A DNA stretch of 61,558 nucleotides from Nitrospirota bacterium (GCA_029261215.1 JAJDBT010000075.1:1-61558); one strand, 5' to 3'. Positions 11,665 through 48,243 are shown, numbered from the stretch's first letter. Notes: generated by a model from the sequence alone, not told the origin. Numbers and translations: made by a program.

Positions 11665-13089
11665 TTATTGATGGGAAGAAAAGCGCTTCAAGATCTTTTC
11701 AGAGGTGTCCTTGCCTTGTTGAATGCAGTCGGGTATGCCGACGCCGCGATAGGCGGCACCCGCCAAAAAAAGTCCGGGATGTTGTTGCACTTGCTGCTCA
11801 ATTTTAGAAACCCAGTCGAGGTGGCCCACATGATATTGAGGGTTGGCCCTGTCCCATCGAAAAACGCGTGCAATCACCGGATTGCCCTTTATTCCTAAAA
11901 TTGTATGCAGTTCTTTTTTGACAATCGAAATAAGTGCGGCGTCATCTTGTTTCAGAATATCCTGATGATAGGCCCCTCCGAGAAAAACACGGATGAGGAC
12001 ATGATTTTCGGGCGCGCGGCCTGGAAATTTTGTCGAACTCCATGTGGAGGCCATCATCGACGACCCCTCTCTCCGGGGAATGACAAAGCCAAAGCCGTTT
12101 AGAGGATGGGGCACCTCTTTTTTATGGAAGCCCAGAGACACCGTTGCCGTTGAAACGTAGGTCATTTCCTGAAGGGATTTTGAAAGCAGATTGTCCCATT
12201 TCTGTATCCAGTCGGCGGCTTTGTAGGTCGGTGTGGTGATCACAAGCGCATCTGCCGTTATCCTCTCATTGTCAGTGAGGACTTCATATCCGGATTCAAG
12301 AGGCAAAACAGATTTAACGGGAGTGCCAATTTTAATTTCGACCTGATCCAGTCTTTTCCTCAGTTCTGAAATGATACTGGAAAGCCCTTCTTCAAGGGTG
12401 ACAAAAAGAGACCATTGCGGAGGCGGGCCGCCTTTTGTTGATGCCTCTGCTTGACGTTTCAGCATTCCTTTGATCAGACTGCCATGCGCTTGCTCAAGCT
12501 GGGCAAACTGGGGGAAAGTGGCTTTCATGCTCAGTTTTTCGGCGTCTCCGGCAAAGATCCCGCCCAGTATGGGTTCGGCAAAGAGCTGTACGGCTTCTTC
12601 TCCCAGGCGTCGTCTCACAAAAGAGGCGATACTTTCGTCTTCTGTGGAGGCCCTTTTGGGGATAAACAGCTCCATCCCCATCCGTGCCTTACCCGCAAAA
12701 GAGATGAGTGGGCTTAGCGCAAAGGGCAGGAGTTTTCCTGGAACCATTAAATTAAAGCCCTGGGGCATGGGCACGAGCCTGCCTTTTGAAAGAATAAAAA
12801 CAGACTTTTCGACCGGATGCGTTTGCACCAGTCGGTCGGCTAAGCCCAGTTGCTGGATTAATGCCATCCCCCATTTTTTTTGTGTGATAAAGGAGTCCGG
12901 CCCGCCTTCAATGACAAAACCATCCACCTGTTCAGAGGTGATTTTTCCGCCAAGGCGTTGACTGGATTCGATGAGGCAAAGATCAAGTGGAAGCTCTTCC
13001 TTTTTGATGGCTTCTCGCAGGAAGTAGGCCGTGGAGAGACCGGTAATGCCTCCACCGATAATCACAATTTTTTTGTTGGATGATGACAT
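11665..13089 (-). CDS. hemY: Protoporphyrinogen oxidase (HemY type)
   Basis: FAD enzyme oxidising protoporphyrinogen IX (or coproporphyrinogen III) in haem synthesis. It shows a Rossmann GxGxxG motif IVIIGGGITGLSTAYFLRE at the N-terminus, the internal GGPDSFITQK block, and C-terminal GLFLAGAAYRGVGIPDCIQQG closing the FAD site. Length about 474 is typical. The ATG at 13089 (MSSSNKK) is preferred; an in-frame TTG at 13125 adds 12 residues not expected before the dinucleotide fold. Neither has a convincing ribosome binding site. It is monocistronic here, but hemE lies 34 kb away in the same window. Confidence 0.9.
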   Translation of the reverse strand: MSSSNKKIVIIGGGITGLSTAYFLREAIKKEELPLDLCLIESSQRLGGKITSEQVDGFVIEGGPDSFITQKKWGMALIQQLGLADRLVQTHPVEKSVFILSKGRLVPMPQGFNLMVPGKLLPFALSPLISFAGKARMGMELFIPKRASTEDESIASFVRRRLGEEAVQLFAEPILGGIFAGDAEKLSMKATFPQFAQLEQAHGSLIKGMLKRQAEASTKGGPPPQWSLFVTLEEGLSSIISELRKRLDQVEIKIGTPVKSVLPLESGYEVLTDNERITADALVITTPTYKAADWIQKWDNLLSKSLQEMTYVSTATVSLGFHKKEVPHPLNGFGFVIPRREGSSMMASTWSSTKFPGRAPENHVLIRVFLGGAYHQDILKQDDAALISIVKKELHTILGIKGNPVIARVFRWDRANPQYHVGHLDWVSKIEQQVQQHPGLFLAGAAYRGVGIPDCIQQGKDTSEKILKRFSSHQ

Positions 13090-13259
13090 TCGCGACAGTT
13101 TACGTGAAAGTGAAATTTGTTTCAAATGGCAGGTTATAACCAGGTCTTCCTGTATTTTTGGCGAGACGCGGCTTGTGCACTAGAATGATGATAAAGGCAT
13201 TTTACTGCAAGTCGTGTTATTCTGAACAATAAGATTTGTTTAATCGAGGGCAAAAAGAG

Positions 13260-35783: not shown

Positions 35784-37316
35784 TCAGGCAAGTATTTTTC
35801 GATCCAGGCTGCGGTATTGGATTGCTTCTGAAATGTCCGGCGTGGAAATGTCTTTTCGTTGATCAAGGTCAGCGATGGAGCGGGCAACCTTTAAAATACG
35901 ATTGTAGGCCCTGGCGGAAAGCCCTAGTTTCTCCATCGCCATTTCAAGAAGTCGTTTTGACGGCTCATCAATTTGGCAGTATTTTTTGAGATGTTTTGGC
36001 CGAAGCTGGGCATTGGATCGAATGCCATCTTCCTGATATCGTGTTAATTGAAGAGCCCTCGCTTTTTGCACACGTGTTTGAATTGATTCTGATGTTTCGT
36101 CTTTTGTTTCAATTGTGAGATCTCGAAATGGCACGGCGGGAACCTCGATATGAAGGTCGATGCGGTCAAGCAAAGGGCCGGATACTTTGGAGCGATATCG
36201 TTGAATTGTTGTGGGAGTGCAAACGCAATTACGTTGCGGATCCGTAAAGTAGCCGCAGGGGCAAGGATTCATGGCGGCCACAAGCATGATCCGTGAAGGA
36301 TAGGTCAATGAGGCGCTTGCGCGAGAAATTGTGACCTTGCCTTCTTCTAGTGGTTGCCGGAGGACTTCGAGTACGTTGCGTTTAAATTCGGGCAGCTCAT
36401 CTAAAAAAAGGACTCCGTTGTGTGCCAAACTCACCTCTCCGGGGCGGGGGACTTGTCCTCCTCCGATTAAACCGGCATCGGAAATCGTATGATGGGGCGA
36501 TCGGAAGGGGCGTGTGCGTAACAGGGGTTCACTCTCTGGCAGCAGTCCGACGACACTGTGGACTTGTGTGACCTCAAGGGATTCTTCAAAGTGCATGCGA
36601 GGTAAAATTGAGGGGAAGCGCTTGGCAAGCATTGTTTTTCCTGAGCCCGGCGGCCCGACCATGAGGATATTGTGTCCACCCGCTGCCGCAATTTCCAAAG
36701 CCCGCTTTGCGTGAGCCTGCCCTTTTACCTCTGAATAATCCTCGCTGTAACTGAGAGGCTCTGATAAAAGGTGAGGGATATTGACCGCAACCGGAGGAAG
36801 GTCGAGCCTGCCACTCGCGAACTCAATGACCTGGGGCAGGGTCTCCATGCCCAACACATGAATCCCTGCAACTACGGCCGCTTCAGCGCCATTTGCGGCG
36901 GGTAAAATGACGCCTTTTTTGCCTAAATGTTTGGCCAGAATGCCGATAGACAATGCGCCCTTAACGGGTTTTATTCGACCATCTAAAGAGAGTTCCCCTA
37001 CAATTAAATATTGGTCCAGGGCTTCTTTTAGGATGACCCCTTCCGCACTTAAAATACCAAGTGCCATGGGAAGATCAAAAGCAGCACCTTCTTTTTTTAA
37101 GTCAGCAGGGGCTAAATTGATGGTAATTTTTTTTACGGGGAAATGAAATCCGGTGTTCTTTATCGCAGAACGGAGTCGATCCTTGCTTTCTTTGACGGCC
37201 AAGTCCGGAAGTCCGACAATAGAAAGCAGGGGAAGCCCTTGCGAGAGGTCAATTTCGACATCAATCAGGTGGGCTTCCACACCAAATAAAGCGGCACTGT
37301 TGATTCTGGCAAGCAC
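35784..37316 (-). CDS. comM: ComM/YifB family Mg-chelatase-like AAA+ ATPase
   Basis: Hexameric branch-migration helicase used in natural transformation and homologous recombination. An N-terminal Lon-S5-like domain (about 1-165; LLSIVGLPDLAVKESKDRLR) precedes the AAA+ module with Walker A GPPGSGKTMLAKR, Walker B VLFLDELPEF, and a C-terminal Mg-chelatase domain with the zinc-like MNPCPCGYF...CVCT segment. Length 510 matches the family. Confidence 0.95.
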   Translation of the reverse strand: MLARINSAALFGVEAHLIDVEIDLSQGLPLLSIVGLPDLAVKESKDRLRSAIKNTGFHFPVKKITINLAPADLKKEGAAFDLPMALGILSAEGVILKEALDQYLIVGELSLDGRIKPVKGALSIGILAKHLGKKGVILPAANGAEAAVVAGIHVLGMETLPQVIEFASGRLDLPPVAVNIPHLLSEPLSYSEDYSEVKGQAHAKRALEIAAAGGHNILMVGPPGSGKTMLAKRFPSILPRMHFEESLEVTQVHSVVGLLPESEPLLRTRPFRSPHHTISDAGLIGGGQVPRPGEVSLAHNGVLFLDELPEFKRNVLEVLRQPLEEGKVTISRASASLTYPSRIMLVAAMNPCPCGYFTDPQRNCVCTPTTIQRYRSKVSGPLLDRIDLHIEVPAVPFRDLTIETKDETSESIQTRVQKARALQLTRYQEDGIRSNAQLRPKHLKKYCQIDEPSKRLLEMAMEKLGLSARAYNRILKVARSIADLDQRKDISTPDISEAIQYRSLDRKILA

Positions 37317-37349
37317 GAAGCACCCTATGTTTTGGGGGAGATAAAAATA

Positions 37350-37802
37350 CTAAAACCGGAGCCTGGCGCGTAAGCGGTCCTTAAGTTCGAGTAATCGGCT
37401 TTTATCCGGGGGATCACTCAGCCAGCGTCCAAGTTCCAGGGAAAAGGCTTCTTGTTCCATATCCAAGTTTAAACGAAAGGGATCTTTATTGGCGACACGC
37501 CCGATTAATCGACTTCTTCTGACTGGCGTTCCAATCAATATCCCGACTTTGTGTATTTGCCAGTTGGTTTGAAAGAAGCCTATTTGTTTGTCTTCAATGA
37601 CGATATGGTCATAATACAAGAGGCTGGCTTCCAAAGAAGACTTCCAGGCTTGATCGTAAGGGACTGGGGACTCTGGAAGGGCCAGGCGGAGTGCGCGTTG
37701 CTGCACGCAGGCGAGCTGACTTAAAAAGAGGATAGAAAAGATTCCCAAGTGAAACCATTGTCGAAATGGACGGTGGTTTATCGAGATGACTTTACTTCGC
37801 AT
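37350..37802 (-). CDS. Predicted lipoprotein of unknown function
   Basis: From the ATG at 37802, an N-terminal basic and hydrophobic signal ends in the lipobox LSQLAC, predicting lipidation of that Cys. The mature part of about 120 residues (ALPESPVPYDQAWKSSLEAS, then a beta-rich region) has no recognised family. A GTG at 37829 in the same frame would overlap the pilZ gene; the ATG gives a normal signal length. The close arrangement with pilZ suggests one transcript. Confidence 0.65.
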   Translation of the reverse strand: MRSKVISINHRPFRQWFHLGIFSILFLSQLACVQQRALRLALPESPVPYDQAWKSSLEASLLYYDHIVIEDKQIGFFQTNWQIHKVGILIGTPVRRSRLIGRVANKDPFRLNLDMEQEAFSLELGRWLSDPPDKSRLLELKDRLRARLRF

Positions 37803-37812
37803 CGCTGTATTC

Positions 37813-38187
37813 TCACGCTTCTTCAGCACTATTTCTTAGGAATGAAGGTGTTGTTTTTCCTTCATGGCCATCGACCCAGTTATATAAGGCGGGTTCTTTT
37901 TCGGGACTTAAATATCCGATAAAGCGGACTCCAAATGAATTACCAGCAGGACCACGATGAACGGCTACAATTCTTCCGATAGTACGTTCTTTAAATGCTT
38001 TCTCTTTAAATTTTCCGGAGATATTGATCGTGACCATTTTGCCAAGTTCAAAGACAGCTGTGGTATGAAAAAGAAGGCCGCCAAAACTCATATTGCTCAC
38101 TGTGACATCAACTGGGATTGTATCTTCCGTAGAAAGCTTTGCCTTCGCAGAAAATGGAACACGAATATGTTGCCTTTTATCAACCAT
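37813..38187 (-). CDS. PilZ domain c-di-GMP receptor
   Basis: The 124-residue single-domain protein has both c-di-GMP-binding elements: RQHIR near the N-terminus (RxxxR) and NMSFGG about 25 residues later ([D/N]xSxxG). The remainder fits the PilZ beta-barrel, ending with VRFIGYLSPEKEPALYNWVD. It is an effector for the c-di-GMP network shown by the two GGDEF-EAL proteins and the riboswitch in this window. It lies just upstream of the lipoprotein gene. The ~315 bp before it (38188-38502) is AT-rich and shows no gene. Confidence 0.9.
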   Translation of the reverse strand: MVDKRQHIRVPFSAKAKLSTEDTIPVDVTVSNMSFGGLLFHTTAVFELGKMVTINISGKFKEKAFKERTIGRIVAVHRGPAGNSFGVRFIGYLSPEKEPALYNWVDGHEGKTTPSFLRNSAEEA

Positions 38188-38502: not shown

Positions 38503-39099
38503 CTATTTTCCATAATTTGAACGTCCTGAAGTCTCTCTTTGAACTCGATCCCGACTTGCTGCGTGAAACAGGTCATCGTCGATATAGGTGACTGAGTAGG
38601 TTTGAACTGTATCTGTTTCGTCAATTTGAAGAATCATTCGCGTCGCACCGTCATCCCAGAACAAAAGGCGGACTCCCGTGAAGGAATTCACACGAGGCGG
38701 TCCATAAAGTTCTGTATTTTCATCAATTAAAACGTGCAGAACCTGACTGGATTTGGCGATGGGGAGATAGTTCATTTCAATACGAAAAAGCCTGTGATTG
38801 TAAAAATCAGCAAGGACTTTTGTCAGGGTTTCAGGGTAAGTGGACAGATCCATTTCATATCGATACTCATCTGAAAATTGACCAATGGCTTTTTCGGAGG
38901 CCTTGGCTTTAGTCGATTGCATAAAGGATTCGTGTGGCATATTGAGCTGAATGGGGCCATGTGCTCTTGGGATGGGTGCGGCCCCTTGAAAAATCGCGTG
39001 AATGGCAAAAAGATCGGTGGGCAGAAAGCATAGAAAAATAGGGAAAACGAGAAAAAAAATCCCCCGAAAAGTGGCCCTTATTGTGATTAAAACTGCCAC
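38503..39099 (-). CDS. Exported protein of unknown function, end of the PCP_red operon
   Basis: A 198-residue protein with an N-terminal hydrophobic signal (about 12-32, ending near LFAIHA). The mature part is mixed alpha/beta with HVLIDENTELYGPPRVNSFT and GVRLLFWDDGATRMILQIDE; no family is recognised. Its start overlaps the end of the CopD-like gene by 13 nt, so it is probably the last gene of the leftward operon that begins at 44680. Confidence 0.65.
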   Translation of the reverse strand: MAVLITIRATFRGIFFLVFPIFLCFLPTDLFAIHAIFQGAAPIPRAHGPIQLNMPHESFMQSTKAKASEKAIGQFSDEYRYEMDLSTYPETLTKVLADFYNHRLFRIEMNYLPIAKSSQVLHVLIDENTELYGPPRVNSFTGVRLLFWDDGATRMILQIDETDTVQTYSVTYIDDDLFHAASRDRVQRETSGRSNYGK

Positions 39100-39527
39100 T
39101 GCCTCAGCATTGCTGCGATAAAAACGATAATCATGCCTATGGCGAGGTTCATTTTAGCCTGAGGTAAGTTGAAGGCTTTTGAGGGATTTTCTTCGTCTAC
39201 CGGGCGGATAAGGCTAAATACTGGAAATGCCGCCATGCCAACAACCAAAAAAATTTTGACTGCAAGCGCCGAGATATAACCGGGTGGAATGACCTCGTGC
39301 CCGGCGCGTCTAACGCCAAAGTTCATGCCTCCGGTCACGACGAGAACAATGAGGAAGAAAAGGGATATCTTGGTAAATCTCTTTGAAATTTTTAAAAGTG
39401 TTTCGTTTGAAGGGTCCCCTGGTTTGATAAATGGGCTTAAGACAAAAACTTGAAAGGCATTTCCGCCGATCCAAAAGATGACTGAGATAAGATGTAACCA
39501 ATGGTTAACGACGGCAAAAGAGTTCAT
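39087..39527 (-). CDS. CopD-like four-helix integral membrane protein
   Basis: The 146-residue protein has four hydrophobic helices and the opening HWLHLISVIFWIGGNAFQVF, typical of CopD/DUF-type membrane proteins in which His residues may bind metal or haem. TGGMNFGVRRAG follows helix 2 to 3. HemJ-type protoporphyrinogen oxidase has a related topology and was considered, but its signature residues are not evident. It sits between the exported protein and the PCP_red genes. Confidence 0.65.
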   Translation of the reverse strand: MNSFAVVNHWLHLISVIFWIGGNAFQVFVLSPFIKPGDPSNETLLKISKRFTKISLFFLIVLVVTGGMNFGVRRAGHEVIPPGYISALAVKIFLVVGMAAFPVFSLIRPVDEENPSKAFNLPQAKMNLAIGMIIVFIAAMLRQWQF

Positions 39528-39586
39528 GAGTCCTCACAGGAAAATCAGGGTGGACGCGAGTAATAATTGTATCACTCAAGCGGTTT

Positions 39587-40579
39587 TTACATTTTTTTAG
39601 AAGTCGGATCCTTTAAATAGTCTTTCATCCGTTCAAGCATCTCTTCATCCATGAGACCAATGGTCCCCTTGGTTTCCATATAATCTTTGATGTCATCCAG
39701 GCGTTTTGCCGCTTCTGGATTATTTTGAAGCCGACGGATCTTTTCTTTTGCATCCTCAAAACCATCGAAGGTCATCTCGTTATAACCAAAGGTTCGTAAC
39801 CGTTTCATGGCCTTCATCATGGCTTCGTTTCTAAAAGTGGTGAGATGTTCTGACCCAATGGTTGTCAGTCCCATTTTTCGGGCACGTCGCTCAGCCGCTT
39901 TTTTGATGCCGCTCCGGACAAAGTCAGGTGAAGTCATCAAGCGCTTTTCTGCCTCGACACTCCAGGTAATGTCACTTTTTGGGGAGTCCCATATTTGTGT
40001 GGCGGCGGCCAGATCGATTCGAGTAATGCCAAGGTCACGTGCCAAATCTTCCGCATCATTTTTCAGCATGTCCCGGACGAAGTCTCGCGCCATTTCAGGG
40101 GATTCTTCTATCTTTTGCTCAAGCCGAACTGTCGCGGCATCGGTCCATTCAATGCCAGACGGAGCCTTGTCTTCCTGAACGTCACCCAAGGCTTCAGCCT
40201 TTTTAAGCAGTGCCATATCGACTTCGAGGTGGCCTCGTTCAAGGGCGACTTCTTCCGCAATTTTTTTGATCATACCCCGCATAAACTCAGGGACGGTTTC
40301 AAGTCGTTCCTGCGCTTCGCGCGTCCAGGCGAGTGATTTTGTTTCAACCCCTGCGGCCATATGGGCAGCGCCTGTGCCTTCTGCGGCCATTGGGGTCATC
40401 ATTTTATCTTTGAATTGGGCAAGAACATCCTCTGTGATGAGTGTGATGCCCAGCTCTGTTGCCTTTTTTTCAGAGAGGTTGCGGACCATTTTCCGCAAGA
40501 AAAAAGGGGCTTTTTTTAAGCGCGCTTCGGCCTCAGGCGTCCACGTAATCAATGATTCCTCTTTTTTTGATCCAAACAT
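39587..40579 (-). CDS. Protein with four tandem PCP_red domains
   Basis: The 330-residue soluble protein holds four copies of the ~45-residue PCP_red fold (PF08369, known from the C-terminus of the light-independent protochlorophyllide reductase subunit ChlB/BchB). They begin at Trp13, Trp85, Trp145 and Trp206 (pattern W...A...L...P.F.R...), followed by a helical tail (about 265-330). No catalytic or metal-binding residues are conserved between copies. The ATG at 40579 follows AGAGGG; the open frame upstream is not used. It lies 10 bp after the radical SAM gene in the same operon. Confidence 0.75.
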   Translation of the reverse strand: MFGSKKEESLITWTPEAEARLKKAPFFLRKMVRNLSEKKATELGITLITEDVLAQFKDKMMTPMAAEGTGAAHMAAGVETKSLAWTREAQERLETVPEFMRGMIKKIAEEVALERGHLEVDMALLKKAEALGDVQEDKAPSGIEWTDAATVRLEQKIEESPEMARDFVRDMLKNDAEDLARDLGITRIDLAAATQIWDSPKSDITWSVEAEKRLMTSPDFVRSGIKKAAERRARKMGLTTIGSEHLTTFRNEAMMKAMKRLRTFGYNEMTFDGFEDAKEKIRRLQNNPEAAKRLDDIKDYMETKGTIGLMDEEMLERMKDYLKDPTSKKM

Positions 40580-40589
40580 TTTAACCCTC

Positions 40590-41978
40590 TTATTTTTTGT
40601 CGGGTGCCGTGGATTCAGGCACGCCGCGTTCAAATTCTGTAAAATTGAAACGCCGACCCAGGCGTATCTCTGCCTGCTCTCGAACCGTTTGCATCACCTC
40701 TATTGTAATGAAATGAATGTTGTTCTCTTTTGCGTATCGCTCAACGCCGCTTGAGACCATGCCCCTTGCAAAGGATGGGAGTCCATTCAGTCGTTCTATG
40801 GAGGCCGCATCCCACTCCAGGGTCATCTTTACTTCCAAGCCAAAAGTTTGATCTGTCCCCAAGGTAATTTTTTCTCCGCCATATTGGCCGGGTTGATAAT
40901 CACAGGCCGGATCTTCTGCTAAATAATCATCGTGTGCGGCATAGGCTCTGCAACGACACCCGCCACACATTTCTGAAAATTCACAGTCGCCGCAACGTCC
41001 GCCGAGCACAGGATCTCTGAGATCATTCAATACGGGCGATGTCTCCCAGATTTCATCAAAGGACTTCTCTCTCAGGTTGCCTGCGGTGACGGGCATATAA
41101 GGACAAGGGGTGATGTCGCCCGATGGGGTAATTCGGCAATAGTATTTTCCCGCCGGACAGCTTCCCTGTGCGTAATTTTTGAGTAGTGGAGAATTTGGGT
41201 CCAGTTCGTAGATCACTCGTCGGAAATGCGGTGCGCATTTTGCCCGGAGAATTAATCCGTGACTCTCTCCCGCTGGAGTGGTCCAGGGGTCGTCATAGGA
41301 GGTAAAAAGCGCGTTTTCTGTGGCTGTCGTTTGGGTTCCGACTCCTTGAGCACGGGCCAGATAGGTCAGAATTTCACGATATTGATTGGGGGTGATATCT
41401 ACAATGCCTTCCCCTCGGCCGGTCTGAACAAGAAAGAAAAAGTTGAGAACCTTGGCCCCTAACTCTCTCGAAAGATCGATCATCTTGGGGATTTCAGAAA
41501 CATTCCATTCCATTACACTCATATGGATTGAGAAATCCAGCCCCTGCTCCTTCAGATGACGCATCCCTCGGACGGCATTTTCCCAGGCATTGGGAAGCTG
41601 ACGAAAACGGTCATGTTTTACCGGATCGACCGAGTCAAGGCTGATGGATGCTCCTTGCAGTCCACTTTCGCGCATTTTGCGGGCTTCGGTTTTTCCTAAG
41701 AGTACGCCGTTGGTTCCGAGCACGCAGGTAAAACCTTTATCTGAACCATATGCAGCAATATCAAAGATATCTTTTCTTACCAGGGGCTCGCCGCCGGTGA
41801 GAATCAGGAAGACATTGGGATTGACCTTTTCAATGTCATCCATCACCTTGAAACACTCTTCCGTCGTCAGGTCGCTGGAGATATCGGCATTCGGAAAACC
41901 GCTGATATAACAGTGCGTGCAAAAAAGGTTGCACCTTTGGGTCAAATTCCATGAAACGGAATAGGCTTGATAAGACAT
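40590..41978 (-). CDS. Radical SAM/SPASM protein with C-terminal PCP_red domain (NirJ/Ahb-like)
   Basis: Radical SAM enzyme with the [4Fe-4S] motif CNLFCTHC (Cys16, Cys20, Cys23), LTGGEPL, and a SPASM-type C-terminal cluster region (CRITPSGDITPCPYMP ... CGDCEFSEMCGGCRC). The core resembles NirJ and AhbC/AhbD, which modify tetrapyrrole side chains in haem d1 and alternative haem synthesis. A PCP_red domain is appended (about 389-432; WDAASIERLNGLPSFARGMV). Its ATG shares one base with the stop of the Usp-PCP gene (TAATG), so translation is coupled. Substrate unknown. Confidence 0.85.
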   Translation of the reverse strand: MSYQAYSVSWNLTQRCNLFCTHCYISGFPNADISSDLTTEECFKVMDDIEKVNPNVFLILTGGEPLVRKDIFDIAAYGSDKGFTCVLGTNGVLLGKTEARKMRESGLQGASISLDSVDPVKHDRFRQLPNAWENAVRGMRHLKEQGLDFSIHMSVMEWNVSEIPKMIDLSRELGAKVLNFFFLVQTGRGEGIVDITPNQYREILTYLARAQGVGTQTTATENALFTSYDDPWTTPAGESHGLILRAKCAPHFRRVIYELDPNSPLLKNYAQGSCPAGKYYCRITPSGDITPCPYMPVTAGNLREKSFDEIWETSPVLNDLRDPVLGGRCGDCEFSEMCGGCRCRAYAAHDDYLAEDPACDYQPGQYGGEKITLGTDQTFGLEVKMTLEWDAASIERLNGLPSFARGMVSSGVERYAKENNIHFITIEVMQTVREQAEIRLGRRFNFTEFERGVPESTAPDKK

Positions 41979-44680
41979 TAAAATCCCTGACTGCGCATGG
42001 TTTCAACCCAGCGCTCGGTCATTTCATTTAAGACTTCGAGTGAAATACGCGTAATTCCTTTTTCCTCGGCGGAGGCCTCTATTTCCTGAACAACCGTTCC
42101 TCTCACAAAGGAGGGAATGATGGAAATTCGAGAGACAGCGGCATCATCCCAAGTCAGGCGACGTTCCACTTTTTTAGAGACCTGAGCCCATTGGGTATAC
42201 TTGTTGTTCACGACTGAAGGGTCGATTTCTCGAATGCCTTTTTTTCGGGCATCGGCTTCAATGCGCCAACGGGTCATTTCTCGCATGAATCCTTCCGGAA
42301 TTTCTTCCAAAATAGCCTTCGCTGTTTCCGTCCAAACCATGGGGGAATCGTCTTTTAAATGACTTTCTTTGCGTTGTAGCTTTAATGAATATTCTCCTCC
42401 TGCGCCACAAAGAGAGCAATGTTCCGGCGAAACTTGTTCCGTGACAAGGCTGCAAACCATGCAGATAAAATAATCGATTGTTTCCTGCATTAACATGAAG
42501 CGGCTCTTTTTAGCATCACAAACAGGGCAGTGCTCCGGAATCTGGCTGGTCACATGTCCGCACATGCCGCAGAAGTGGAGGCGTTCTTTTTCTACGGTAA
42601 TGGGTGCTTCATCTCCTGCCATTAACGCCATTTTCTTTTTAATGTCTGCCAGACTGGTTGCACCGGAAAGCACATCCTCCATCTCCTGTGTGGCCTTGGA
42701 GATCCCGGCTTCGGCCACTTCCAATGTAATGTGTTTGATGGTATTCGAGTAGGCATAATTCTCGATGTGTTGTCGTGTCGCATCCCGCATAAATCCTACG
42801 GGGACTCGCTCTAAACGGGCTTTGCCCTCATCACTCCAGGTAAATTGGGGTGTCGCAGGTTCGGACTTTCCAACAGCTGTTTGAATTTCTTCTTTTTTAG
42901 GTTGGTCTTGATTGGCTGCTCTCGAAATCGCTTTGGCTGCGATTTCCAGTCCTTCTTCAGCATCTTCATCCAGCCCTTTAAGCATCCGGATTGCAAACTC
43001 ATTTGTAATGGTCGTAAATCCCATTTTTCGAGCTGTTTTTTCTACCTTTGCTTTTCCGCGTCGCCGTTCAAAGCCAGCGGGGATGGCCCGAAGGGTGTTT
43101 TTGGCATCTTCAGTCCAGTTGAGCGGTACGCCATCATAGCCCATCTCCTGAGAAAGTCCGCCTTCGGCTTTGGCTGCGGATTCAAAAAGGGACTTGTCCA
43201 GAAATTGAAAGGCTTCGCCGTCCGCGCTGCAGATCGGACAGGTGACCGGTTTTGATCCTTTGGCTGTGTACCCGCAATTGCTGCAAACATGGAAGTCTGC
43301 TTTCGATTTTTCTTCGTAGCTTTCGGCACGTTCCGTATCGCGGTCTTTCACGATGTCGGTCATCATGCCTGCAATGCCGCCACTTCGCAGACTTTCTGCC
43401 ACTGCGTCATCGGCTTTCATTTTATTTCTGTCAATGCCTTTTTCATCCAGTACTTTTCCCATGTTCTTCATCATATCAATGGAGGACTGTGGCAGAATCT
43501 CGCCCATGGCCCCATCCACGACCGAGTTGGTGATGATGGAGTAGCCTTTTTCGACGGCATAACGGTAAACGGCTGTTTTGGCTACACCGCGTGCAAAAAT
43601 CGGCACTTTTTCCATGCGTTTGGACGCTTCTTCTGTCCAAGCAACGGTGTATTCGGCGATGGCATCAATGGGTGGCATGTAGGTTTTATTGGAAATCAAG
43701 ACATTACAGGGCGCCATTCGGACGAGGTTTTCCGAATTGCTGCCGATATCCATATCGCTGTCGGAGTGAACGCCGATGCGACCGACAACCAAGAGCCAGG
43801 GTTTTTCTTTTTTAATGTATTGAAGGACTTTTTCAAAGGGTTTTCCGTCGAGAAGCGAAGTGCTGATTTTGACGCCTTCGTCTTCGGCGAGCTTGGTACA
43901 CACTTCAAGATGAGACTGATAAATTTTGGCCAAGCCGGAGTCGATCACGTCTTCATGCAGTTTTTCCTGCTCTTTAAAACGGAAGACTTTCCCGGCTTCT
44001 TCATTTAACACACCGGAAATGGAGTTAAACACCGCATAATGGTAATAAGGATCAAAGGCAGAAACGATATCAAGCGGAAGCTCGTAGGCCTTGGCCAGCG
44101 CGAGAGCAGTCTTAAAACCGCCAAAAGAATGATGGCTGCCATCAACGGCAACGACAATTTTTCTCAAGCTTTTAGGGACATCCGAGGTGGGCTCTTTTAC
44201 CACAAAAATATCTGATTTTCGTACTCGACGGATTGTACGTTCGGTGACACTGCCGATCATGCTTTCTTTGACCGCGCCGACACCGAGAGCGCCTAAAATG
44301 ACGAGATCATAACCATTTTTAATGATATCTTCGACCAGCACCTTGTAGTTTTTTCCCTCCAGGGAAACACGCTCCATGGGGACATTGCTCTCACTCGCTT
44401 TTTGATCAATGATATCAAGATAGGAATCTGTAATAATTTCTAAACCGCGTGTGATCAAAGAGTCATGTATCTTTCGTTGACGTTCCAGTTCGTTTTCGTC
44501 ATGATATTCTTCAGGAAGCCCCGCTTCCATCTGTTTAAAACGTTTATCATGTAACTTGGCTGCGTAAGCATGGCTGCCAATGACCTTCGAACCAAACTGC
44601 TGGGCCAAAGCGATGCCAATTTCGATGGCCGTGTTCGAAAAATCCGAGTTGTCCACCGGAATATAGATTGATTTATACAT
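41978..44680 (-). CDS. UspA-UspA-PCP_red x5 protein with three rubredoxin-like knuckles
   Basis: This 900-residue cytoplasmic protein has an unusual architecture. Two universal stress domains (about 1-163 and 173-332) both keep the ATP-binding pattern G2xG9xGS. PCP_red domains start at about 348, 522, 615, 783 and 844. Between them lie three CxxC...CxxC knuckles (Cys466/469-481/484, 704/707-718/721, 740/743-755/758) resembling rubredoxin or zinc ribbons. It looks like an ATP-sensing redox scaffold. GGGGGAG precedes the ATG by 10 nt. First gene of the leftward operon. Confidence 0.8.
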   Translation of the reverse strand: MYKSIYIPVDNSDFSNTAIEIGIALAQQFGSKVIGSHAYAAKLHDKRFKQMEAGLPEEYHDENELERQRKIHDSLITRGLEIITDSYLDIIDQKASESNVPMERVSLEGKNYKVLVEDIIKNGYDLVILGALGVGAVKESMIGSVTERTIRRVRKSDIFVVKEPTSDVPKSLRKIVVAVDGSHHSFGGFKTALALAKAYELPLDIVSAFDPYYHYAVFNSISGVLNEEAGKVFRFKEQEKLHEDVIDSGLAKIYQSHLEVCTKLAEDEGVKISTSLLDGKPFEKVLQYIKKEKPWLLVVGRIGVHSDSDMDIGSNSENLVRMAPCNVLISNKTYMPPIDAIAEYTVAWTEEASKRMEKVPIFARGVAKTAVYRYAVEKGYSIITNSVVDGAMGEILPQSSIDMMKNMGKVLDEKGIDRNKMKADDAVAESLRSGGIAGMMTDIVKDRDTERAESYEEKSKADFHVCSNCGYTAKGSKPVTCPICSADGEAFQFLDKSLFESAAKAEGGLSQEMGYDGVPLNWTEDAKNTLRAIPAGFERRRGKAKVEKTARKMGFTTITNEFAIRMLKGLDEDAEEGLEIAAKAISRAANQDQPKKEEIQTAVGKSEPATPQFTWSDEGKARLERVPVGFMRDATRQHIENYAYSNTIKHITLEVAEAGISKATQEMEDVLSGATSLADIKKKMALMAGDEAPITVEKERLHFCGMCGHVTSQIPEHCPVCDAKKSRFMLMQETIDYFICMVCSLVTEQVSPEHCSLCGAGGEYSLKLQRKESHLKDDSPMVWTETAKAILEEIPEGFMREMTRWRIEADARKKGIREIDPSVVNNKYTQWAQVSKKVERRLTWDDAAVSRISIIPSFVRGTVVQEIEASAEEKGITRISLEVLNEMTERWVETMRSQGF

Positions 44681-47168: not shown

Positions 47169-47208
47169 CCGCCACCTTTGACCCCTTATTTTAGAGGAGC
47201 ACTTTTTG

Positions 47209-48243
47209 ATGAATGATCGATTTTTGAAAGCCTGCCTTCGGCAGCCGGTGGATGCCACCCCGGTGTGGTTCATGCGGCAGGCGGGACGCTATATGAAGGC
47301 TTTTCGCGATATCCGGGCGAAACATTCTCTTTTGACTGTTTGCAAAACGCCGGAACTGGCTTGCGAAGTCACCTTGCAGCCGATCAACCGTTTCGACTTT
47401 GACGCGTCTATTATTTTCGCAGATATTTTACTTCCCCTGGAACCGATGGGGCTGAATCTCGAATTTGTCAAAGGGGAAGGCCCCTGCATTCATAACCCAA
47501 TCCGTTCTGAAAAGGATGTGGATGCGCTGAAGCCGGTCGTACCACAGGAATCTCTGGCGTATGTAATGGAAGCCATCAAACTGGTGCGCGCCGAATTGAA
47601 TGTACCCTTGATCGGTTTTGCAGGTGCGCCTTTTACTCTGGCAAGTTATATGATTGAAGGCGGATCGTCCCGAAATTATCTCGATACCAAAAAAATGATG
47701 TATGGTGCCCCCGATGTCTGGGATCGTCTCATGAAAAAACTCACCCGTGTGCTGGCAGATTATCTTTCGGCTCAGGTGGATGCAGGTGCGCAGGTGCTTC
47801 AGATTTTTGACAGCTGGATTGGCGCACTATCGCCGGGCGATTACCGGCGATATGTCTTTCCCCACATGAAGCGGCTTTTATCCGAACTGCACACCTTTGG
47901 CGTACCGGTCATTCATTTTGGTACAGGCACGGCCACGTTACTTCAAATGCAAAAGGAAGCGGGCGGCGATGTGATTGGTCTGGATTGGCGGGTGAATCTT
48001 GATGAAGCTTGGGCACTTTTGGGACATGATGTGGCAGTGCAGGGCAATCTCGACCCCCTGACTCTTTTTGCCCCGATTTCAGAGATTGAAAAACGCGTGG
48101 ACGATATTGTGACACGCGTCGGAAAACGCCCCGGTCATATTTTTAATCTCGGTCACGGTATTTTGCCGGAAACACCGCTCGAAAGTGTCGAAGCGGTTAT
48201 CCAGATGGTCCACGAAAAAAGCGCCAAGATTCTTGCCGCTTAG
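47209..48243 (+). CDS. hemE: Uroporphyrinogen decarboxylase
   Basis: Removes the four acetate carboxyls of uroporphyrinogen III to give coproporphyrinogen III. It contains signature 1 (PVWFMRQAGRYM) with substrate-binding Arg residues, IIFADILLPLEPMG with the catalytic Asp, and signature 2 (GFAGAPFTLASYMIEGG). C-terminal HIFNLGHGILPETP completes the TIM-barrel site. 344 residues is normal. The ATG at 47209 follows AGAGGAGC; an in-frame TTG lies one codon earlier. It supplies tetrapyrrole precursors upstream of protoporphyrinogen oxidase and any radical SAM tetrapyrrole chemistry. Confidence 0.96.
   Translation: MNDRFLKACLRQPVDATPVWFMRQAGRYMKAFRDIRAKHSLLTVCKTPELACEVTLQPINRFDFDASIIFADILLPLEPMGLNLEFVKGEGPCIHNPIRSEKDVDALKPVVPQESLAYVMEAIKLVRAELNVPLIGFAGAPFTLASYMIEGGSSRNYLDTKKMMYGAPDVWDRLMKKLTRVLADYLSAQVDAGAQVLQIFDSWIGALSPGDYRRYVFPHMKRLLSELHTFGVPVIHFGTGTATLLQMQKEAGGDVIGLDWRVNLDEAWALLGHDVAVQGNLDPLTLFAPISEIEKRVDDIVTRVGKRPGHIFNLGHGILPETPLESVEAVIQMVHEKSAKILAA

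Follow-up and report, generated by a model that had tools for sequence, protein, structure and literature searches.

The stretch of DNA analyzed here, 61,558 nucleotides from a Nitrospirota bacterium (GCA_029261215.1, JAJDBT010000075.1:1-61558; hereafter the window), contains an operon whose proteins carry ten copies of PCP_red (PF08369), and across the phylum this gene set is associated with a bd-like oxidase. All features of the operon lie on the minus strand. Gene A (41978-44680) encodes a protein of 900 amino acids with two universal stress protein (Usp) domains, five PCP_red units and three rubredoxin-like knuckles and has orthologues across the class Nitrospiria. Gene B (40590-41978; 462 amino acids) combines radical SAM and SPASM domains with one PCP_red unit, and gene C (39587-40579; 330 amino acids) encodes four PCP_red units followed by a conserved tail at the C-terminus. 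Genes D (39087-39527), for a CopD-like membrane protein of 146 amino acids, and F (38503-39099), for an exported protein without a Pfam or NCBIfam family match, follow. Genes A and B are coupled through a shared TAATG, C begins just past B, and D and F overlap. The start of C is most likely the ATG at 40579 rather than the TTG at 40633.

The PF08369 profile matched ten segments of the three coupled genes (five in A, one in B and four in C), of which nine were above the Pfam cut-off of 32.5 bits. The five units of A lie at 43511-43639 (A1, 51.9 bits), 42995-43117 (A2, 35.7 bits), 42710-42838 (A3, 40.7 bits), 42206-42334 (A4, 42.2 bits) and 42023-42151 (A5, 41.2 bits), and the unit of B lies at 40683-40814 (40.1 bits). 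Those of C are found at 40409-40543 (C1, 56.8 bits), 40196-40327 (C2, 52.4 bits), 40007-40147 (C3) and 39839-39964 (C4, 44.4 bits); C3, at 25.2 bits, is under the cut-off and has the fold order of its neighbors in the model of the protein. An earlier reading of the DNA alone (the sequence-only reading) had proposed five, one and four PCP_red units in three consecutive coupled genes and would have been abandoned had the profile failed on most segments; the matches and the A/B overlap bear it out. The genome has 12 PCP_red units in total, the remaining two being in a protein encoded on a different contig (protein E). The profile matches and the class-wide copies rule out an artefact or an oddity of a single genome.

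An AlphaFold model of C, built with 17 homologues as input, gave a mean pLDDT (predicted local distance difference test score) of 72 and a pTM (predicted template modeling score) of 0.39, so the placement of the units relative to one another is unreliable. Each of the four units, C3 included, has the order strand-helix-helix-strand-helix. The top PDB matches found by Foldseek were 2l09 and 2kru, both PCP_red structures (target TM-score 0.75, probability 1.00, E-values of about 0.035), and the common fold anticipated by the sequence-only reading was recovered in C. A histone-like half-fold was considered and dropped, the Foldseek matches to histones being non-significant.

By profile and predicted fold, the units are the same domain as the PCP_red of ChlB/BchB, a subunit of the light-independent protochlorophyllide reductase (DPOR; 2kru, 2ynm), and as the stand-alone Nostoc protein asr4154 (2l09). 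In contrast to DPOR, the Nitrospirota proteins contain as many as five copies of the domain, along with Usp, knuckle and radical SAM modules, in a genome without NifDK-like catalytic subunits. PF00148, the family of the NifDK-like BchN and BchB, had no match in the window's genome in a search that included four positive-control genomes. The reported lack of bchN and bchB near the operon thus extends to the whole genome, and a DPOR remnant is ruled out because the nitrogenase-like PF00148 subunit is missing.

Protein E, which carries two PCP_red units, is encoded between an iron-sulfur (Fe-S) ATPase of the Mrp/NUBPL P-loop type and a haem-oxygenase-like protein whose closest family is CADD. The ATPase matches PF10609 with 240 bits, as do the Fe-S carrier ATPases of the Mrp/ApbC/NUBPL type, from which it differs by its coupling to a PCP_red protein and by equivalog scores below the cut-offs (MrpORP, 256 against 450 bits; ApbC, 166 against 348 bits). 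It scored 26 bits against BchL, for which the cut-off is 345, although no search dedicated to BchL was run.

The tandem Usp domains of A (43694-44680) are Pfam Usp matches, and the motif G-2X-G-9X-G(S/T), characteristic of the ATP-binding type of universal stress protein, is intact in both (residues 130-144 and 300-314). The CxxC-CxxC knuckles at 43229-43285 (a RUBY_RBDX match), 42518-42571 and 42407-42463 gave three rubrerythrin-type, rubredoxin-like Pfam matches, and all three CxxC pairs are real. The two ATP-binding domains and three knuckles first recognized by eye are therefore present as described.

Protein B matches Pfam Radical_SAM and SPASM, and its CX3CX2C and SPASM cysteines are invariant among 21 homologues. 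The top-ranked NCBIfam families were NirJ2 (311 bits) and AhbD (300 bits), both under their cut-offs and far ahead of PqqE (121 bits), in keeping with the original description of a NirJ/Ahb-like enzyme. In a maximum-likelihood tree, which has several long branches that leave the deeper joins unsure, the B clade (support 94/94, with one f21 member; f labels denote families of the genome search) was sister to Nitrospirota proteins of the AhbD type (98/97 for the joint clade). It lay outside the AhbD clade and separate from the other NirJ/AhbC-like proteins. Some f16 genomes contain a true AhbD together with B, so B is a paralogue there. B therefore shares radical SAM and SPASM domains and a sister position with AhbD, the haem b synthase, but differs from AhbD and NirJ-type enzymes by its scores, its C-terminal PCP_red unit, its co-occurrence with true AhbD and its host's possession of HemE (47206-48243), HemY (11665-13125) and HemH. 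Given these three enzymes, B should not be required for haem b and is unlikely to substitute for an absent step in haem b synthesis. In the window, the operon is flanked on one side by the gene for HemY, a protoporphyrinogen oxidase, about 25 kb away, and on the other by that for HemE, a uroporphyrinogen decarboxylase, about 2.5 kb away.

Among membrane proteins of the four-helix CopD/HemJ type, D barely passes the Pfam CopD cut-off (32.9 bits against 32.1) and falls far under that of NCBIfam copper_CopD (35.2 bits against 195). The conserved gene set contains no copper genes. The earlier designation of a CopD-like membrane protein followed by an exported protein stands for D by this margin. 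D may resemble HemJ, to judge by a weak UPF0093/HemJ match of 15.9 bits, under the cut-off.

PCP_red was detected in all 98 Nitrospiria genomes searched, mostly in 10-13 copies, and named relatives with the domain include Candidatus Manganitrophus, Troglogloeales and soil Nitrospirae. Beyond the phylum, a single pattern scan with a reach limited to close relatives returned Nitrospirota alone. Genes A and B were directly adjacent on the same strand in 40 genomes of 15 families, 24 genomes of 10 families had Mrp and E side by side, and in almost every Nitrospiria locus seen D came after B or C. The survey of gene order thus showed that the arrangement is not unique to this genome. The A-B and B-D pairs are conserved much more broadly than the complete five-gene order, which is limited to the taxonomic order to which the window belongs (f1 and f5, and f3 up to the contig end), as is gene F in the neighborhood comparison. 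Genes for C, CADD, E, Mrp and DUF420 are grouped in f9, f11 and f12 and lie near A-B in f9 and f12, where the two loci of the window's genome are thereby united. B and C form one fused protein of 706-730 amino acids in f22, which is evidence that they work together, and a protoporphyrinogen oxidase gene (304 bits, cut-off 97.9) follows the fusion. The simplest form of the system occurs in f30, f31 and f35, where a plain Usp pair, equivalent to A without PCP_red, stands beside a radical SAM/PCP_red protein.

The neighbors of these genes include a bd-like protein, identified by a match to PF01654 in its N-terminal half (CydA-related), cytochromes c, and a cytochrome c fused to EB_dh, the gamma-subunit type of type-II dimethyl sulfoxide (DMSO) reductases. 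Among 198 Nitrospirota genomes, PCP_red was present in all 86 with the bd-like protein, and the 90 that lack PCP_red all lack the bd-like protein as well. The other 22, which have PCP_red and no bd-like oxidase, contain a single copy each, belong mostly to f15 and f23, and show other architectures. Outside the class, the four counts were 21 (both), 22 (PCP_red only), 0 (bd-like only) and 90 (neither), with a Fisher p of about 7e-13 that ignores kinship. Family f22 is patchy for both traits, with four genomes having both and at least two having neither. In ten families (f9, f18, f20, f21, f22, f30, f31, f32, f35 and f40), a gene for A, B, C or E and a bd-like gene are no more than 12 kb apart, and in several of these families the nearby bd-like gene is the only one in the genome. 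Most loci had been fetched through PCP_red or A matches ahead of the oxidase search, and some were picked with both known. In f30, f31 and f35 (loci L207-L209), an operon contains the Usp and radical SAM/PCP_red genes in varying order, the bd-like gene, genes for small or cytochrome c proteins, and then genes for a delta-type chaperone, a molybdopterin alpha, an Fe-S beta and an EB_dh gamma subunit resembling those of type-II DMSO reductases.

The bd-like oxygen reductases of Nitrospirota and Nitrospinota have been described as OR-N CydAA', TO_1 and TO_2 (PMC12342949, PMC10839748, PMC9040806). Papers on Nitrospirales, Nitrospinota and Manganitrophaceae treat the oxidase as a putative OR-N CydAA' or TO_1/TO_2, with a subunit composition that lacks experimental confirmation (PMC10839748, PMC12342949). 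The co-occurring oxidase resembles the OR-N oxidases in its PF01654 match and its cytochrome c and EB_dh neighbors. It is encoded outside the window and is the proposed client of the system. The bd-like proteins of f30, f31 and f35 (L207 7434-9122, L208 7596-9287, L209 7634-9319) have a methionine in place of a histidine that is conserved in most relatives and that, in an alignment, corresponds to the first haem-ligand region of CydA.

Several other genes were seen around the system and its domain. In all same-order relatives seen, the operon is followed, as in the window (35784-38187), by genes for PilZ, a small lipoprotein-like protein and ComM, whose functional link is not evident. In genome G168 (L212 4484-9555), genes for an Rrf2-like regulator, an IscS/NifS-like class-V aminotransferase and NifU directly precede A and B. 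A protein of 217-244 amino acids with the shared start LxWLxxSRxxF...GKPLRYFSA is encoded next to A or B in f30, f32 and f40 (L073 6172-6825, L211 12325-12984, L212 9559-10290, L213 8050-8784), and the one member tested had no Pfam or NCBIfam match. In f23, which has no bd-like oxidase, a different protein of 338-344 amino acids carries one PCP_red unit close to its N-terminus (L076 8035-9060, L077 8082-9116, L078 6239-7255), alongside a conserved gene for 172 amino acids in L076 and L077. Small PCP_red proteins adjoin a PmbA/TldD-type protease homologue in f15 (L079 1094-3069, PmbA 354 bits; L088 344-2101) and lie between a B12-binding radical SAM protein and an apparent 3-isopropylmalate dehydratase small subunit in f30 (L080 8359-10883, L081 7003-9505). 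Directly before A in Nitrospiraceae (L058 6917-8560), and near the bd-like cluster of the window's own genome (L218 3074-4666, contig C106), lies a gene for a B12-binding radical SAM relative of cyanobacterial slr0320. This protein was rejected as a member of the system because it follows neither the oxidase nor PCP_red, being present in bd-negative f15, f22 and f23 and absent from f16 and f20.

Our preferred reading, to which we give about even chances, is that the operon, E and the Mrp ATPase serve specifically to mature the bd-like (CydA-related) oxygen-reductase complex of Nitrospirota and its cytochrome c/EB_dh partners. The cofactor handled would most likely be a haem-type tetrapyrrole. 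The tetrapyrrole direction is supported because the B clade is sister to AhbD and a protoporphyrinogen oxidase gene adjoins the system in one family, and an iron tetrapyrrole appears the likeliest substrate. With domains, conserved gene links, co-occurrence and the position of B observed directly, we infer a chemistry in which Mrp would supply Fe-S clusters and B, like its sister AhbD, would use an iron tetrapyrrole as substrate. The PCP_red units of A, B, C and E may keep the proteins together as a common module for docking or for holding the ring; the Usp domains and knuckles of A could provide ATP control and metal binding, respectively, and D would work at the membrane. The sequence-only reading had suggested a redox- or ATP-gated scaffold acting on a tetrapyrrole or metal cofactor, with repeats that might bind many copies of one partner; its parts list holds up, its tetrapyrrole direction gains support, and the link to the bd-like respiratory complex is the main fact added. 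A bolder proposal, which we consider unlikely, is that what the system produces and delivers is a haem-type tetrapyrrole of undescribed structure, needed by bd-like oxygen reductases and cytochromes in nitrite-, manganese- and related oxidizers. A precedent exists in a neighboring lineage, where the haem of Leptospirillum cytochrome 579 has a novel, unsolved structure and a spectrum unlike that of any known haem (PMC8126622).

Several points weigh against the maturation reading, which draws on sequence, gene context and models. Protein B falls well short of the cut-offs for AhbD (TIGR04545, 299.7 bits against 500) and for NirJ of haem d1 synthesis (TIGR04051, 193.5 bits against 515), and the solved folds nearest its model in Foldseek are the peptide-modifying SPASM enzymes PqqE, SkfB and SuiB. 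Comparison of homologues revealed no conserved cysteine or histidine among the PCP_red units, which are thus unlikely to be metal sites. Kinship affects the co-occurrence of PCP_red with the bd-like oxidase. The two are linked by presence and not by position in Nitrospiraceae, f16 and part of f30, where the genes do not lie near those of the oxidase. The gene neighborhood is also compatible with Fe-S supply.

The main rival is that the system builds or repairs Fe-S clusters in chemolithoautotrophs exposed to oxygen; Mrp and E would carry clusters, A would sense ATP and redox state and B would be a client or helper. The adjacency of Mrp and E throughout the phylum fits this proposal, as do the rubredoxin-like knuckles of A and, beside A-B in the single genome G168, the NifU scaffold (206 bits, above its cut-off) and the class-V aminotransferase. 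The link to the bd-like oxidase could then reflect the many clusters demanded by its molybdoenzyme and ferredoxin partners. Yet the presence of the system is predicted by the oxidase and not by Fe-S enzymes generally, as many anaerobic, Fe-S-rich genomes of the phylum are without it. Moreover, B groups with the tetrapyrrole-acting AhbD, and any radical SAM enzyme requires Fe-S supply anyway. We regard an Fe-S role as rather improbable.

The second rival, which seems to us quite improbable, is that B is a modifying enzyme whose target is a peptide or protein, such as one of the subunits of the bd-like complex, with the PCP_red units docking the target much as precursor-recognition domains do. 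The Foldseek ranking of B and the lack of conserved metal ligands in PCP_red agree with such a role, and in f30, f31 and f35 the system shares its operon with the genes of the target complex. Against it, B scores much higher with the NirJ2 and AhbD sequence families than with PqqE, it groups with AhbD in the tree, and no gene for a short precursor peptide was recognized among the open reading frames of 60 or more amino acids in the listed loci. A stress or energy-state regulatory scaffold, in which A reports ATP and redox state and the PCP_red repeats merely assemble partners with no cofactor chemistry, would suit the intact ATP motifs and the plain Usp pair of f30, f31 and f35 but is very unlikely, given the invariant radical SAM and SPASM cysteines of B and the way in which the system tracks one respiratory complex.

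On the preferred reading, the system would be of a known kind, one devoted to maturing the cofactor of a respiratory complex, with a parts list that is undescribed. The system is a member of neither DPOR nor the AhbD family. Neither this gene set nor PCP_red proteins outside DPOR were found described in the open PMC literature, in agreement with the statement of the sequence-only reading that no described pathway has this set. PF08369 has been included among marker families for phototrophy (PMC12815261). With many copies in Nitrospirota and no DPOR in the genome tested, its use as such a marker can mislead. Nitrospira and its relatives, among them nitrite, complete-ammonia and manganese oxidizers, are thought to respire through bd-like oxidases. 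A conserved gene set that follows the oxidase provides named candidates for its assembly or for the synthesis of its cofactor, and so makes the question testable. If the maturation reading is true, a domain of chlorophyll synthesis would be active beyond chlorophyll synthesis.

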